NCBI RefSeq assembly: GCF_000219125.1 | Contig: NZ_AFGF01000017.1 | Span: 62,001 to 126,000 of the forward strand | DNA: 64,000 bases | Source of the DNA: Acetonema longum DSM 6540 | GTDB lineage: Bacteria; Bacillota; Negativicutes; Sporomusales; Acetonemataceae | Direction of reading: 5' to 3' | Made by a program: the position numbers and the translations under genes | The notes under the pieces: generated by a model | The model's database searches: none | What the model saw: only the letters and a program-made list of their open reading frames with translations | What the model was told of the DNA's origin: nothing | Shown: positions 4,179-61,782 of the stretch, piece after piece | How positions within the stretch are numbered: the stretch's first letter is position 1 | Layout of the letters: every line of letters begins with the position of its first letter

Positions 4179-4703
4179 GTGATGGCTCTGGATATTAATG
4201 CTGTGTTATTGTCCGGCGGTATGACGCTTCTGTTATGCGCCGCCGTATTTTCTACCCTGCTGGGTTTGCCCGGCAACCTTTTGGTATTGCTGCTGGCTGC
4301 CGGCTATGGATTTTATGAAGGATTTCAAATTTTTGATCCGGGATTTTTAGGTCTTCTCTTGGGGATCTATCTGGCCGGGGAAGGGGCGGAATTTCTGGCA
4401 GCGGCTGTGGGAGCCAAAAAAGCGAAAGCTTCCCGGGCAGCGGTGGTTGCGGCCTATATCGGCGGCTTTGCCGGCGCTCTTCTCGGCACCATGCTGCTGC
4501 CGGTCATTGGTACCATTCTGGGATCGGCTGCCGGCGGTTTTGCCGCCAGTTATAGTGTGGAATACAGCCGAACGGACAAATCACAGGCCATGCGGGTAGC
4601 GGTGCACGTGGTCGTGGCCCAGGGCCTTGGTTTACTGGCTAAGATGGCCGCCGGCGTGAGCATGGCGGCGTTGGTGCTATTGCGTTGGCCTCTGTGGCAT
4701 TAA
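4179..4703 (+). CDS. DUF456 family small integral membrane protein
   Basis: This 174-residue, very hydrophobic protein matches the DUF456 (YqgC-like) pattern. It has an N-terminal membrane pair around LLGLPGNLLVLLLAAGYG, a glycine-rich middle (residues about 85-120, GGFAGALLGTMLLPVIGTIL) and a C-terminal hydrophobic segment. Function is unknown for the family. The start is either GTG 4179 or the adjacent ATG 4182; no strong ribosome site is visible. It lies 20 bp upstream of the secreted DUF1800 gene in the same direction, so co-transcription is likely. Nothing in the sequence shows a substrate. Confidence 0.85.
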   Translation: MMALDINAVLLSGGMTLLLCAAVFSTLLGLPGNLLVLLLAAGYGFYEGFQIFDPGFLGLLLGIYLAGEGAEFLAAAVGAKKAKASRAAVVAAYIGGFAGALLGTMLLPVIGTILGSAAGGFAASYSVEYSRTDKSQAMRVAVHVVVAQGLGLLAKMAAGVSMAALVLLRWPLWH

Positions 4704-4723
4704 TCCGGGAAAGGAGAGAATGG

Positions 4724-6361
4724 ATGAGAATATTAGTATTTCTGTTGCTTTTCCTGTCTCTTGTTTCCTCCGGAATGATCCGGGCTCAAGCCCAATCGCT
4801 GCTGCCCTACGCCCGATACGGACTGACCGATCGGCAGGCTGCCGCCTTCCTGTTGGACCGGTTTGCTTTCGGCGCCAGGCCTGGGGAGGTAGAGATGGTA
4901 GTAGCAAAGGGTGTTTCAAATTGGTGGGAGGAACAGTTGACCGGGACCCTGCCGGAAGAAAGGCTGGCGGCCGAACTGGCTTCTCTGCCGGCATTGGGTC
5001 TGTCTGCCAGGCAGATGGCCTATGCTTATCCCAATGCGGGTACGGTATGGATGGAGGCCCGTCAGGACGGATACATACCGGCGGGGTCCTTGCCGGAAGC
5101 TCAGACCAACAGGAAGCTGGAGCAGTATCGTCAGGCCAAAGGATATGGCAGCCAGAACGACTTGGTGGCGCAGTTATATAAGCAAAAAATCGCCCGGGCG
5201 ATTTACAGTGAAAATCAATTAGTGGAAGTCCTTACCGATTTTTGGTTTAATCAATTCAACGTCTCGGTCACTGACAGCCGGGCTTTGCCTTACATATTGT
5301 CTTATGAACGGGATGCCATCCGGCCGCATCTGTTCGGCAAATACAGTGAACTGCTGAAGGCAACGGCGAAGCATCCGGCCATGCTCTATTATCTGGATAA
5401 TGCTTCGTCCTTTGATGACGGGGCCGCTTTACCCCAGGGCGGTCTGAATGAAAACTATGCTCGCGCCCTGCTTGAACTTCACACCCTGGGTGCGGCAAAC
5501 CGGTATAAGCCACAGGATGTCACTGGAGTTGCCCGGGTGTTTACCGGCTGGACCGTCTTACCGCGGGGGCAGGCGGGAGAGCGGCTGGCGGCCCGGATCA
5601 CTCGGGATGAAACCGGCGATGCCTTGGGATCTCACGGTTTCTTATTCCTCTCTGGTTTGCATGATGCGAAAGAGAAGGCGGTCCTGGGCGCTGCTATTTT
5701 GCCGGGCGGGATGGCTGAAGGAGAAAATCTGCTGGTCGCGCTGGCCAGGCGGAAGGACACCGCCGACAACATTGCCCGCAAGCTGGCGGTCAGGTTTATT
5801 GCCGATAAACCACCCTCTGGGGCAGTGAAGCGATTAAGCGGGATTTATCTGCGCACTGACGGCGATTTACGGGCTTTGCTGCAGGGCATTGTCAACTCCC
5901 CGGAATTCTGGCAGCAAGCCGGGCTGCGACAAAAGGTTAAGCCGCCGGCGGCCTATATCATCAGTGCAGTCCGCAGCCTGGACGCAACGGTGACCGATTA
6001 CCGCTCCCTGACCCGGTGGATGGCCCGTCTGGGACAGCCCTGGTATGCCTGCATCACACCGGCGGGATATTCCGATAAAGGAACAGACTGGCTTAACAGC
6101 GGTGCGCTGCTGCAACGCATGAACTTTGCCTTTGCCTTAGCCCGGGGTCAAATTCCTGGTGTGAATTGGTCGGCAGATCCCTGGGGCGATACTCTTCAGC
6201 GTTACGCCGGTGCAGGTCTATCCCCCATAGCTGCCCGGATGCTGCCGGAACGGAAATATGACGGCTTTGCGTCTCTGGCTACAGAATATCCCCAGCCAGT
6301 TCTAACCATCCGCGACGCAGCCGGACTAGTCCTGGCGTCGCCTGAATTCCAACGTTACTAG
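4724..6361 (+). CDS. Secreted DUF1800 family protein
   Basis: The protein has 545 residues, starting at ATG 4724 with AAGGAGAG five bases upstream; an upstream in-frame ATG at 4685 has no such site. Residues 1-24 form a clear Sec signal peptide ending at RAQA-QS. DUF1800 landmarks are a N-terminal AAAFLLDRFAFGA segment, DFWFNQFNV near residue 165, NENYARALLELHTLG near 245 and a GWTV motif. The family has no established biochemical function, but is typically encoded next to a DUF1501 protein, as here. It therefore likely acts outside the membrane with that partner. The stop codon abuts a dispersed repeat, which separates it from the DUF1501 gene. Confidence 0.9.
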   Translation: MRILVFLLLFLSLVSSGMIRAQAQSLLPYARYGLTDRQAAAFLLDRFAFGARPGEVEMVVAKGVSNWWEEQLTGTLPEERLAAELASLPALGLSARQMAYAYPNAGTVWMEARQDGYIPAGSLPEAQTNRKLEQYRQAKGYGSQNDLVAQLYKQKIARAIYSENQLVEVLTDFWFNQFNVSVTDSRALPYILSYERDAIRPHLFGKYSELLKATAKHPAMLYYLDNASSFDDGAALPQGGLNENYARALLELHTLGAANRYKPQDVTGVARVFTGWTVLPRGQAGERLAARITRDETGDALGSHGFLFLSGLHDAKEKAVLGAAILPGGMAEGENLLVALARRKDTADNIARKLAVRFIADKPPSGAVKRLSGIYLRTDGDLRALLQGIVNSPEFWQQAGLRQKVKPPAAYIISAVRSLDATVTDYRSLTRWMARLGQPWYACITPAGYSDKGTDWLNSGALLQRMNFAFALARGQIPGVNWSADPWGDTLQRYAGAGLSPIAARMLPERKYDGFASLATEYPQPVLTIRDAAGLVLASPEFQRY

Positions 6362-6586
6362 GGGGACCGTTGGAAAAGGCCCATCTGCATCGTTGCCCGT
6401 TCGACGTACCCTGCGAACGTACAGTCTCACGCCCGGCCTCGTCGCGCTGTATCAAAATCCGCGATTTTTCGGGAAGGCGCGATAGTGGATGAGCCCGCAT
6501 AAGATGAAAAGTCGCCTGAATTCTTCACTGTACGGAAACGCAGAGCGTTTCTCTTACCTAGCATCTGGACCTTTTTGAACGGTCCC
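6362..6586 (+). repeat. MITE-like dispersed repeat, copy A (about 225 bp)
   Basis: The left end GGGACCGTTGGAAAAGGCC (6363-6381) is a near-perfect inverted copy of the right end GGACCTTTTTGAACGGTCC (6567-6585). The interior shares long blocks with 61396-61566, including GCGCTGTATCA, GCCTGAATTCTTCACT and GCGTTTCTCTTACCT. No protein is encoded. The element begins at the base after the DUF1800 stop codon TAG. Confidence 0.85.
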
Positions 6587-6644
6587 GGATTCGAGGCCAT
6601 AGATGAATTGGGCACAGACTTCCAGGGTTTGAAAGGAGGACTTT

Positions 6645-9328: not shown

Positions 9329-9389
9329 AACACGCCTCCTGATTTTTTTCGGAATGGGAATCTGTTGCAACGAGGCAGACGGGCCTGTT

Positions 9390-10517
9390 TCAACGGCCCC
9401 CTAAAACCTGCAGCAGTTCCTTGGGCGAAATCGGATCGGAATCGTACTTGGCCACCAGCTTCACTGGAGCCTTGCCTTCCACAACCCGTTTTACTTCTCC
9501 CACAACCTGGCCGTAATTCATTTCGGCAACCACGATGTTTTTTACTTTCGTCGCCAGTTTGGCAATCTGTTTGTCAGGGAAAGGCCACATGGTAATCATG
9601 CGGAACATGCCGGCCTTGATTCCCTGCTCCCGGGCCATGTCAATGGCGGCGTAAGCCGAACGGGCCGTTCCGCCGTAGGCTATGATGGCGGTATCGGCGT
9701 CTTCCAGGCGATATTCCTCATAGAGGACGATATCATCCAGATGGTTTTCAATTTTTTCATGCAATCGTTTCAGCAACTTTGCGGTAGCAGCCGGGGAACC
9801 GTTGGGGAAGCCGGTTTCGTCATGGACCAGGCCGGTTACGTGATACCGGTAGCCTTGCCCAAAGGCAGCCATGGGCGGCACCAAGTCCTGGTCAGGCTTG
9901 TAGGCCTGGTAGTCGGCGCTGGGAGCGGCGGGGGCTTTACGGCAAGGCTGCTTTACCTCACTATAGTCAGGAAGCTCAATCTTTTCCCGCATGTGGCCGA
10001 TTACCTCGTCCATCAGGAAAATGACCGGTACGCGGTATTTCTCCGACATTTCATAGGCTTTGATTGTGAGGGAAAAACATTCAGGCACACTGGCCGGCGT
10101 CAGGGCGATGATCGGATGATCACCATGGGTACCCCAGCGGGCCTGCATCACATCGCCTTGAGCGGCGGCGGTAGGCTGTCCGGTGCTGGGACCCACCCGC
10201 TGTACGTTGGCAATGACTACAGGGGTCTCGGTAATGGCCGCATAGCCGATCAATTCCTGCTTTAACGAAAACCCGGGGCCGCTGGTTGCGGTTAAAACTT
10301 TTTTCCCTGTCAGGGAAGCGCCGATGATTGCCGCCATACTGGCGATTTCATCTTCCATTTGGATGAATTTCCCGCCAACCTGCGGCAGGCGTTTGGCCAG
10401 AGACTCCGCAATTTCCGTGGACGGGGTGATGGGGTATCCGGCAAAAAACTTGACACCTGCTGCGATAGCGCCCTCGGCACAGGCTTGGTTCCCTTGCATA
10501 AGAAGAACTTTTGCCAC
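9390..10517 (-). CDS. korA: 2-oxoacid:ferredoxin oxidoreductase, alpha subunit
   Basis: This 375-residue alpha subunit contains the pyrimidine-binding domain with AGYPITPSTEI near residues 26-36 and QMEDEIASMAAIIGAS near 53-68. It continues with TATSGPGFSLKQE and the GPSTGQPTAAAQGD segment, all hallmarks of KorA/VorA. A C-terminal transketolase-like domain follows (DTAIIAYGGTARSAY). With KorB it makes acyl-CoA, CO2 and reduced ferredoxin from a 2-oxoacid and CoA, or runs the reverse reaction. It is the second gene of the operon. Confidence 0.95.
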   Translation of the reverse strand: MAKVLLMQGNQACAEGAIAAGVKFFAGYPITPSTEIAESLAKRLPQVGGKFIQMEDEIASMAAIIGASLTGKKVLTATSGPGFSLKQELIGYAAITETPVVIANVQRVGPSTGQPTAAAQGDVMQARWGTHGDHPIIALTPASVPECFSLTIKAYEMSEKYRVPVIFLMDEVIGHMREKIELPDYSEVKQPCRKAPAAPSADYQAYKPDQDLVPPMAAFGQGYRYHVTGLVHDETGFPNGSPAATAKLLKRLHEKIENHLDDIVLYEEYRLEDADTAIIAYGGTARSAYAAIDMAREQGIKAGMFRMITMWPFPDKQIAKLATKVKNIVVAEMNYGQVVGEVKRVVEGKAPVKLVAKYDSDPISPKELLQVLGGR

Positions 10518-13656: not shown

Positions 13657-13670
13657 GATCACGCCATCTC

Positions 13671-13774
13671 TTTCATCTGTCAGGAAAAATCCTGATGGAA
13701 TTGGCACCGTTTCGCAAAATGCGATGGTTGCCGCGGCGTCATCGGGCCAGTCCCTCAGCCAACTCTTGATGAAA
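13671..13774 (-). promoter_or_regulatory. SAM-I (S-box) riboswitch
   Basis: The minus-strand transcript shows the S-box order: P1 5' strand TTTCATC, CAAGAG, GAGGGACTGGCCCGATGA, CGGCAACC, then GTGCCAATTCC and the closing GATGAAA (13677-13671). These are the conserved aptamer elements. SAM binding would favour the downstream terminator and switch off metNIQ. Confidence 0.93.
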
Positions 13775-13808
13775 TCTTAAACATATATAGTTATAGTTGA
13801 TGAAATAT

Positions 13809-13983: not shown

Positions 13984-14283
13984 GTGGCGATCAATCCAAA
14001 ACTCAAAGACGAGTTAACGGATCAGCTTATGCGCGCGGTGCTGTTATTAAAAAGCGAGGAAGAATGCTATCAGTTCTTTGAGGATATCTCCACCATCGGG
14101 GAGCTCAAGGCACTTTCACAGCGCCTGGAAGTAGCCCGGATGCTGGAAGCGCGTCATACCTATGATGAAATTGTGGCGAGGACAGGCGCCAGCACTGCTA
14201 CGATCAGCCGGGTGAAGCGGTGTTTGTACTATGGAGCGGACGGATATAAGATAGTACTGGAGCGATTAGGGGAGGACCGTTGA
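13984..14283 (+). CDS. yerC: YerC/TrpR-family DNA-binding protein
   Basis: This 99-residue protein of the TrpR-related YerC/YecD family carries a helix-turn-helix at about residues 58-80 (YDEIVARTGASTATISRVKRCLYYG). The start is GTG 13984, six bases after GGGGGAG. It lies immediately upstream of hisZ. Comparative work on Firmicutes has associated YerC-type regulators with histidine genes, and this neighbourhood agrees, but direct regulation here is inference. The ligand is unknown. Its stop codon lies inside the left end of a dispersed repeat. Confidence 0.9.
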   Translation: MAINPKLKDELTDQLMRAVLLLKSEEECYQFFEDISTIGELKALSQRLEVARMLEARHTYDEIVARTGASTATISRVKRCLYYGADGYKIVLERLGEDR

Positions 14284-14351
14284 AAAGGACCAGCTGCGTC
14301 ACTTCAGCCTCCTGTGGGCGGGCCTGGCATCTGGGCCTTTTTGAACGGTCC
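14274..14351 (+). repeat. MITE-like dispersed repeat, copy B (about 78 bp, internally deleted)
   Basis: The left end GGACCGTTGAAAAGGACC (14274-14291) and the right end GGGCCTTTTTGAACGGTCC (14333-14351) match copies at 6.4 and 61.4 kb; most of the interior is missing. The preserved right inner block is GGCATCTGGGCC. The left end overlaps the last codons and stop of yerC. Confidence 0.85.
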
Positions 14352-14396
14352 GGGGCTACAGATAATTTTGCAACAGAAATGTGGGGAGGAGTAGAA

Positions 14397-19017: not shown

Positions 19018-20113
19018 GAACATCAGCCAACTAAAACCCTACAGCACCGCAGAAACTCAATGGCGCGTCAGACTAGACGCCAACGAACGGCCGGAGAATC
19101 TGCCTTCTGCGGTGAAAGAGCAAGTTTTAAACCGTCTGGCGGGCCTGGATTTCAACCGCTATCCCGACAGCGGCGCAACGGAATTGCGGCAAAAAATCGG
19201 GGCCGCATTTGGGCTGGACGGAGGCAATGTGCTGCTGGGAAACGGGTCCAGTGAGCTGCTGGCAGTGATCTGCACTGTGTTTGGAGGAGAGGGTCGAAAA
19301 ATCATCTACCCCACCCCGTCTTTTTCCATGTATTCCGTGTATGCCAAACTGTCAGACAGTCCGGCCTTCGCTATTCCCCTGGAAGCGGATTTTAGCCCGA
19401 ATATGGAAAAAGTCATTGGCGCTGCTCAGAGTGAACAGGCCGGTTTGGTTATTCTCTGCAATCCCAACAATCCCACCGGCAACGTGATGCAATCGACTGA
19501 CATCCGGACCGTACTGGCAGCTGCTACCTGTCCGGTGGTAGTGGATGAGGCCTATTATGAATATTGCGGCCAATCGGTCAGTGACCTGTTGCCTCAGTTT
19601 CCCAACCTGATTATTACCCGTACCTTTTCCAAGGCCTACGGCCTGGCCGGGGTCCGGGCAGGCTATATGCTGGCGGCGGCGGATATTGTGGCGGCAGTGA
19701 TCAAAGCCCAATTGCCTTATCATATGAATGCGCTGTCTTTAGCGGCTGCTACAGCTGTCTGGGAGACGCGGCAGGCTTTTGCCGCCGACATTGCCCTGAC
19801 GATAGCCGAAAGGGAGCGGATGACTGACAGTTTGGGACATTTATCAACTGTTCAGGTTTACCCCTCCAAAACCAACTTTTTGCTGATCCGGGTAGAGCAA
19901 CCTGCCGCCTTGCGGGAAATGTTCGCCGCTCAGAGTGTCGGTATCCGGGACTTCAGCGATTATCAGGGACTGGAGGGATGCTTCCGGATTACGGTGGGAA
20001 CCAGAATAGAAAATAATTTGGCTATGAATATATTGGAACGGTATCATAAGACCCGGGAACCAAGCGGCGGCGCAGGATTCCCGAAAGGAGATTCCTATGG
20101 TGAGACTCGCTGA
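18995..20113 (+). CDS. hisC: Histidinol-phosphate aminotransferase
   Basis: This PLP-dependent class I/II aminotransferase has 372 residues. The PLP-binding lysine sits in [17 protein letters not shown] near residue 210. Other conserved parts are [22 protein letters not shown] and the Asp/Tyr pair in VVDEAYYEY. The ribosome site GAGGAGG (18984-18990) lies within the hisD end. It overlaps hisD by 23 bp and hisB by 17 bp. Confidence 0.96.
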
Positions 20114-60312: not shown

Positions 60313-61395
60313 GTGCAACAAAGCAGATTGGCAAAGGTCTTATGCATTATGATTCTGGCAGCTTTTTTGGTAGCCGGTTGCGGCGGACAAAAAGCAGGGG
60401 ATTCTGGGAATAAGGAAAAACTGGCCTCCGAACTGAACCTATTCATCTGGTCGGAATACATCCCTCAGGCTGTACTGGATAAATTCCAGGAGAAATACGG
60501 CATTAAGGTCAATCTGAGTCACTATTCTTCCAACGAAGAAATGCTGGCCAAACTTCAGGCCGGCGGCGCTTCCCAGTATGACCTGGCAGTAGCCACCGAC
60601 TACATGGTGGAGATCATGCTCAAGCAAAAACAGCCGATCATTCAGGCCTTTGATGTCAACAACATTCCTAACCTGAAAAACATAGACCCCCAATATAAAA
60701 ACAAATTCTTTGATCCGGACAACCAATACACCGTGGCCTATATGTGCGGCAGCGTGCTGCTGGCCGTGAATACCGACAAGGTAAAAGAACCGGTGAAAAG
60801 CTATAAGGATCTGCTGAATCCCGGTCTCAAAAATTCTCTGGTGGTCTTAGACGACCAACGGGCGATTATCGGCATTGGCCTGAAAATCCTGGGCTATTCC
60901 CTGAATGAAACCGATCCCCGGAAATTGGCCGAGGCCAAAGCACAAGTTGCAAAACTCATTCCCAATATTAAAGCCTATGACAGCGACAGCCCCAAAACTC
61001 TCTTAATCAACGGCGAAGCCGCCATCGGCTACGTCTGGAATGCCGAGGCCTCCCTGGCTAAGAAAGAAAATCCCGCCATTGAAGTGGTTTTCCCGGAGGA
61101 AGGCATGTATCTCTGGCAGGACAATTTCGTCCTGACTCATGGCGCCCCTCATAAACGGGAAGCCGAGTTGTTCATGAATTTCATTCTGGAGCCGGAAATC
61201 AGCCTGCTGATCTCCAAAGAATTCCCCTACACCAACCCCAATATGGAAGCGGTCAAGTTGCTGGATAAGGCCCTGCTGGAAGACAAAGCCGTGTATCCCC
61301 CCACGGAAGCACTGGCAAAAGGCGAGTTCCTGAAGGATCTGGGGCAAGCCACCAGAGTGTACGACGAGATTTGGTCCGAACTTAAAACTAAGTAG
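60313..61395 (+). CDS. potD: Spermidine/putrescine ABC transporter, substrate-binding lipoprotein
   Basis: This 360-residue lipoprotein starts at GTG 60313, after GGAGG. The lipobox is LVAGC near residue 23. The polyamine-binding fold is clear: LNLFIWSEYIPQAVLDKFQEKYGIKV, YDLAVATDYMVEIM, and the C-terminal EGMYLWQDNFVL. It is the last pot gene. Its TAG stop is followed directly by a dispersed repeat and then by the operon terminator. Confidence 0.95.
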   Translation: MQQSRLAKVLCIMILAAFLVAGCGGQKAGDSGNKEKLASELNLFIWSEYIPQAVLDKFQEKYGIKVNLSHYSSNEEMLAKLQAGGASQYDLAVATDYMVEIMLKQKQPIIQAFDVNNIPNLKNIDPQYKNKFFDPDNQYTVAYMCGSVLLAVNTDKVKEPVKSYKDLLNPGLKNSLVVLDDQRAIIGIGLKILGYSLNETDPRKLAEAKAQVAKLIPNIKAYDSDSPKTLLINGEAAIGYVWNAEASLAKKENPAIEVVFPEEGMYLWQDNFVLTHGAPHKREAELFMNFILEPEISLLISKEFPYTNPNMEAVKLLDKALLEDKAVYPPTEALAKGEFLKDLGQATRVYDEIWSELKTK

Positions 61396-61566
61396 GGGAC
61401 TGTTGAAAAAGGGCCGTCCTCGCTGCGCTGTATCAGGCTTCACGACTTTTCGGGACAGCGGTAATAGCAGGTGATCCCTTAAGCCGAAAAGGCGCCTGAA
61501 TTCTTCACTAGCATGGAAGCGCAAGCGTTTCTCTTACCTGGCATCTGGGCCTTTTTGAACGGTCCC
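61396..61566 (+). repeat. MITE-like dispersed repeat, copy C (about 171 bp)
   Basis: The left end GGGACTGTTGAAAAAGGGCC and the right end GGGCCTTTTTGAACGGTCCC are inverted copies. The interior shares GCGCTGTATCA, GCCTGAATTCTTCACT and GCGTTTCTCTTACCT with copy A. It starts at the base after the potD stop. Confidence 0.87.
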
Positions 61567-61616
61567 AGATGCTAGGCTAAAGATGGGTTTTGCAACGGGA
61601 GATCATCCGAATAATT

Positions 61617-61657
61617 AAAGGCGTCAAGCCAAGAAATTTCTTGGCTTGACGCCTTTT
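61617..61657 (+). terminator. Terminator of the pot operon
   Basis: A perfect 40-base palindrome (61617-61656) with arms AAAGGCGTCAAGCCAAGAAA and its complement, ending in TTT. Confidence 0.88.
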
Positions 61658-61782
61658 GTCCTGCGTGGGGGTATTCTGGTCAACGGGGCATAGAATAGAA
61701 CATGACGACATGCGACGCCCCGGAGCGGAGAGGACGAAGGGGATTTGTCCGGCAACAGCGAAAGAATAGAGAAAATATAAAG

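Follow-up and report, generated by a model that had tools for sequence, protein, structure and literature searches.

A short palindromic repeat is present in four copies (A to D) in the 64,000-nucleotide stretch of the Acetonema longum DSM 6540 genome analysed here (the window), and every copy lies at the stop codon of an upstream co-directional gene. The reading that we favour, and to which we give an even chance, is that these copies belong to an old palindromic repeat family spread throughout the Negativicutes, which is anchored at stop codons, kept by vertical descent, and acts as a hairpin in mRNA. A sequence-only reading of the window had proposed a dispersed repeat family with terminal inverted repeats, which the profile and sequence searches confirm. 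That reading counted three copies, all at plus-strand stops; the location at stops holds throughout, but there are four copies, and one of them, copy D (9354–9403), is on the minus strand.

Copy A separates a DUF1800 gene from a DUF1501 gene, a split that had been proposed and is now supported by profile matches of both genes. The TAG stop (6359–6361, plus strand) of the DUF1800 gene (4685–6361 in the ORF list, with a complete profile match, 2–419/419) abuts its left end. The full-length element occupies 6360–6617 on the plus strand (nhmmer profile match, E 2.4e-76; alignment of 30 copies), and contains a left arm that forms the terminal inverted repeat (6362–6380, from sequence comparison and folding), an inner right arm that is its partner (6568–6586, from folding and covariation), and an outer right extension (6587–6617) that is conserved in alignments of copies from this genome, all on the same strand. 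The anticipated core shared by 6362–6586 of copy A and 61396–61566 of copy B is present, with ~79% identity across ~175 bp (E about 1e-35), and the ends of both copies have the form GGGACCGTT-G-AAAAAGG / CCTTTTT-G-AACGGTCCC. The right ends had been placed at 6586 and 61566, where these end motifs are indeed found, but conservation extends about 30 bp further; because of the conserved tail GATTCGAGGCYGCAGATGAGTTTTGCAACA, a profile of 21 copies lengthens copy A to ~6617 and copy B to ~61597. Copy B (61393–61597, plus strand) is ~205 bp long with a shortened left part, and its leading TAG (61393–61395) is the stop codon of a PotD-like gene. Copy C (14270–14376, plus strand) is a short form of ~100 bp between a YerC/TrpR-like gene, the stop of which is the TGA at 14281–14283 (plus strand) within the element, and a HisZ-like gene. 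Copy D is a ~50-bp remnant between the genes for the alpha subunit of a 2-oxoacid:ferredoxin oxidoreductase (pyruvate:ferredoxin-oxidoreductase-type) and a TPP-binding beta subunit, and the alpha gene takes its TGA stop from this remnant.

The family is not a chance occurrence. With up to three mismatches allowed, the right-end motif occurs 386 times in the genome compared to 61 times for a reversed control, and a single query yields 40 scored copies (4.32 Mb in 295 contigs). There are ~18 elements in a 461-kb sample that was not selected for copies except for the window itself, and we therefore estimate ~160–170 copies per 4.3-Mb genome; a separate estimate from the motif counts gives about the same number. 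The basic unit is an imperfect hairpin of ~120 nt with the end logo YAGGGGACCGTTG, and the 70 sampled copies fall into size classes of ~85 bp (ends only), ~100–123, ~155, ~230–270 and ~380 bp, with internal hairpin modules that are present or absent at two fixed points (model positions 55/58 and 104/215). Six copies were considered to have a different left end, but this was rejected, as the difference is an additional module between model positions 55 and 58. Small or decayed forms are also numerous. These many dispersed non-coding copies with self-complementary structure are as expected of short interspersed palindromic repeats in general. Elsewhere in the genome, three elements lie within ~8 kb (locus L181, G000:C50:12001-32000), including copies at the stops of the acetyl-CoA synthase beta and FolD genes.

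Pairing within the element is maintained by compensatory change, judging from aligned copies. A short form of ~120 nt is found in genomes of the same order (e.g. GGCCGTTGATAAAGCCCCATCTGCGT...TAGCATCTGGGGCTTTCTGAACGGCC), and a consensus of 31 pairs derived from 14 sequences has both sides changed in 14 of the pairs, against 3.6 in shuffled sequences and 0–2 in slid structures; the latter comparison is partly circular because the structure was predicted from those same 14 sequences, whereas the shuffle comparison is not. Single copies in the window's genome likewise keep the outer helix by compensation (GTAGCGTT/AACGCTAC, GGCCGTT/AACGGCC). The terminal inverted repeats are imperfect, and a G-G mismatch (GTT-G / G-AAC) that makes the stem asymmetric is kept in almost all copies. 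Folding z-scores of single copies are modest (-2.8 for copy A and -1.9 for copy B), and covariation would also be expected if a single-stranded DNA hairpin were the selected form. An attenuator-like switch, with the left arm pairing to the outer right arm, was seen by eye and rejected, the pairing being no better than expected from independence.

The anchoring at stop codons extends well beyond the window, in agreement with an earlier suggestion of 3'-end association. Among near-complete copies in this genome with a co-directional left gene, the stop falls between -6 and +12 nt relative to the left end in 37 of 41; the genes are simple ORF calls, so single stop-to-element distances may be wrong. 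The leading TAG of the element is the stop in 15 copies and the TGA of its GTTGA is the stop in 10, such that the element itself provides the stop in 25 cases, and TAG accounts for 21 of the 37 anchored stops compared to 62 of 286 long ORFs. Where both flanking genes are co-directional, the gap on the left is at most 5 nt in all 28 cases, whereas uniform placement in the same spacers predicts 7.8 such cases and 0 of 20,000 simulations reached 28; the right end has no such anchoring. In an independent and distant genus (g3; genomes G009 and G013) 39 of 44 stops fall between -25 and +12 relative to the left end. Relative to their co-directional neighbours, copies are biased in orientation in the window's genome (29:8, P=0.0008), and more weakly so in g3 (31:17, P=0.06). 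The host gene ends include those of acetyl-CoA synthase, FolD, YchF, and his and pyruvate-oxidoreductase-type operons. The upstream proteins that were checked are complete by profile (DUF1800 419/419, YchF 368/368, DUF436 171/171, ACS beta 245/245, M23 96/96), and the copies therefore sit at native gene ends with no domains removed, which leads us to reject truncation of host genes by insertion; in some genes the element adds a short tail, for example GDR.

These placements bear on two other explanations. The repeats could be selfish or neutral leftovers, tolerated only at gene ends and kept by inertia with no function, and both the many small or decayed forms and the typically intergenic location of bacterial repeats are in keeping with this. 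The spacer beyond the stop should be at least as tolerant of insertion, yet the copies are at the stop itself, only one end is anchored, and the hairpin is maintained by compensatory change, so that we regard a neutral origin of the pattern as unlikely. Look-alike intrinsic terminators, which would share the GC-rich hairpins at gene ends, are highly improbable: terminator-like sites, in which a T run comes directly after a GC-rich stem, number none in copy A and one in copy B, which is near the chance number, and a distinct terminator-like hairpin with its own T run lies downstream of copy B (61618–61658, plus strand, read from the sequence). Moreover, 29 of 55 copies in this genome, about half, are located between co-directional genes.

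The family is widespread in one class of bacteria, here taken as Negativicutes as judged from named records. A covariance model (R1) finds the hairpin in 24 of 28 genomes of the order, which answers the earlier suggestion to look for copies in related genomes, and several of these have at least 80–128 matches each. Across the class, matches are present in 55 of 121 sampled genomes and 32 of 64 genera; in the rest of the phylum, only 5 of about 194 genomes have one. Several of these five look like real distant relatives at the sequence level, sharing the segments CCATCTTCGTTGTTGC, TCCTGCG and CTCGTCCTTCCTAG; an exact-pattern scan of named genomes gave matches only in Selenomonadales/Negativicutes MAGs. 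Loci L173–L176 in a genome of another class (G263) have distant hairpin relatives, with a short terminator-like hairpin directly before each. The repeat matches no Rfam family above the gathering threshold, and a search of mainly freely accessible literature found no published account, so that an earlier description may exist. The family is apparently undescribed, even though many genomes of the one class carry ~100 copies or more.

The elements could also be active MITEs or REPINs, non-autonomous and mobilised in trans by a transposase with a preference for the 3' ends of genes, in which case anchoring at stops would represent target choice and not function. High copy number, terminal inverted repeats and the symmetry-breaking G-G mismatch fit this, as do the 97–99% alike copies at non-orthologous places between g3 genomes, the nested modules and tandem copies, and one intergenic site at which the element is in opposite orientations (G020:C58 about 19242–19360 compared to G009:C1 659325–659502). 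A transposase with matching ends had been suggested as a check, and none is found among the PF01797 and PF13751 families of this genome; the candidates are three Y1_Tnp genes (two full-length and RAYT-like) and two DDE_Tnp_1_6 genes, and we reject a RAYT or IS1182-type partner because the flanks of these genes are unrelated to the element ends. The RAYT proteins of this genome have no match in 1.7 Mb of relatives' DNA, mostly from G013. Nor is a target-site duplication clear: the left end is YAGGGG and the right has only a weak TCCTA, and no duplication is consistent among copies. The proposal of a mobile RNA-structure cassette is thus sustained for the conserved structure, foldable as RNA or single-stranded DNA, and not so far for transposition. 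Two intact RAYT-like Y1 genes at L097 and L098 (G000:C134 and C76) lie amid different, GGGGACGG-type repeats, another repeat system of this genome. No plasmid match was found, and a plasmid-borne origin was rejected.

Comparison of orthologous sites also weighs against active movement, which we consider possible but not probable. A 20-kb block of G009 containing six elements was aligned with four congeneric g3 species, the main blocks being 85–92% identical, and 95 of 100 mapped pairwise site comparisons are occupied; four of the other five involve one G016 site and one is a loose mapping. Further copies of the family exist, but empty-site counterparts, which had been sought as the other mark of mobility, do not appear cleanly in this block of six sites in five congeneric species, a small sample; the refuting condition set by the earlier reading therefore holds in part. 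The element interiors vary more than the genes, with a mean identity of 86% for orthologous copies and 80% for non-orthologous copies, and some g3 sites carry extra hairpins or tandem copies. Because nearly all sites are occupied and the interiors are variable, we favour a history in which sites are retained for long periods while their content changes, over one of recent scattered insertion. Closer to the window, the copy B site in G005 lacks the element, with a spacer so diverged that a clean empty site cannot be recognised; the DUF1800 protein, sought in order to find an empty counterpart of copy A, has no homologue in 40 relatives; and synteny between the L181 block and G001 is insufficient for an empty-site reading. 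At L034 (G008:C192) an element lies between two near-identical terminator-like hairpins of ~37 bp, possibly a long target duplication.

By layout the family is ERIC/REPIN-like. ERIC (IRU) of the Enterobacteriaceae is an imperfect palindrome of ~127 bp, intergenic and dispersed in up to hundreds of copies (PMC2229807, PMC10969869), but it has a TA target duplication that is not clear here, and the repeat described here belongs to Negativicutes, is anchored at stops and often provides them. REPIN/REP elements (REPINs: PMC3116915) are similar in having hairpins of ~100 nt in which the inverted ends are conserved and the middle varies, and form extragenic, long-kept populations; this repeat differs in lacking a GTAG (or CGTC) tag at either end and in not flanking the RAYT-like genes of its genome. 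In integron attC sites the 5' arm contains RYYYAAC and the 3' arm GTTRRRY; this identity was rejected because GTT is in the 5' arm here and AAC in the 3' arm. BOX of pneumococcus is a modular repeat. BOX and RUP of the same organism share with Correia/NEMIS of Neisseria a small size, internal variability and foldable transcripts (PMC2229807), but they are from other taxa, have other sequences, and are not reported to be anchored at stops in the literature that we found. QMITE2 of Coxiella burnetii, a MITE for which most reported copies are in the 3' untranslated regions of ORFs, differs in sequence and occurs in one species, with no class-wide conservation mentioned in the passage concerned (PMC10969869).

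Returning to the vertically kept mRNA hairpin, the element would once have spread as a non-autonomous element and would now be mostly inherited vertically, with interiors changed by recombination or nested insertion. Because the left arm is at the stop codon of the upstream gene, the element is expected in that gene's transcript, and it would be transcribed together with the gene and fold into a hairpin at the 3' end of the mRNA or between cistrons. A ribosome at the stop codon would cover part of the left arm and open the base of the hairpin, and this could in turn alter how stable the upstream message is or how it is processed, or insulate the downstream cistron. The closest experimental precedent is ERIC in Yersinia, in which an RNase E site is reported to be under the control of RNA conformation, ribosomes and orientation (PMC2229807), with an orientation- and ribosome-dependent effect on upstream mRNA stability (PMC2229807, PMC10969869). 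By analogy, the element probably influences the expression of neighbouring operon genes as an mRNA hairpin. A stronger proposal, which we offer as rather doubtful, is that it is either a portable, class-wide regulator of mRNA fate coupled to termination, or a mobile element with true stop-codon targeting; under the former, each terminating ribosome would open the element because the stop codon is in or next to the hairpin base. The stop anchoring makes it possible to test directly whether interspersed hairpins travel as passive passengers or form a distributed layer of post-transcriptional control, and the g3 genus, with its conserved sites and altered interiors, provides natural experiments. 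The sole Rfam match in the window is a SAM riboswitch (RF00162, 91.5 bits; 13670–13775, minus strand) upstream of an ABC-transporter operon.
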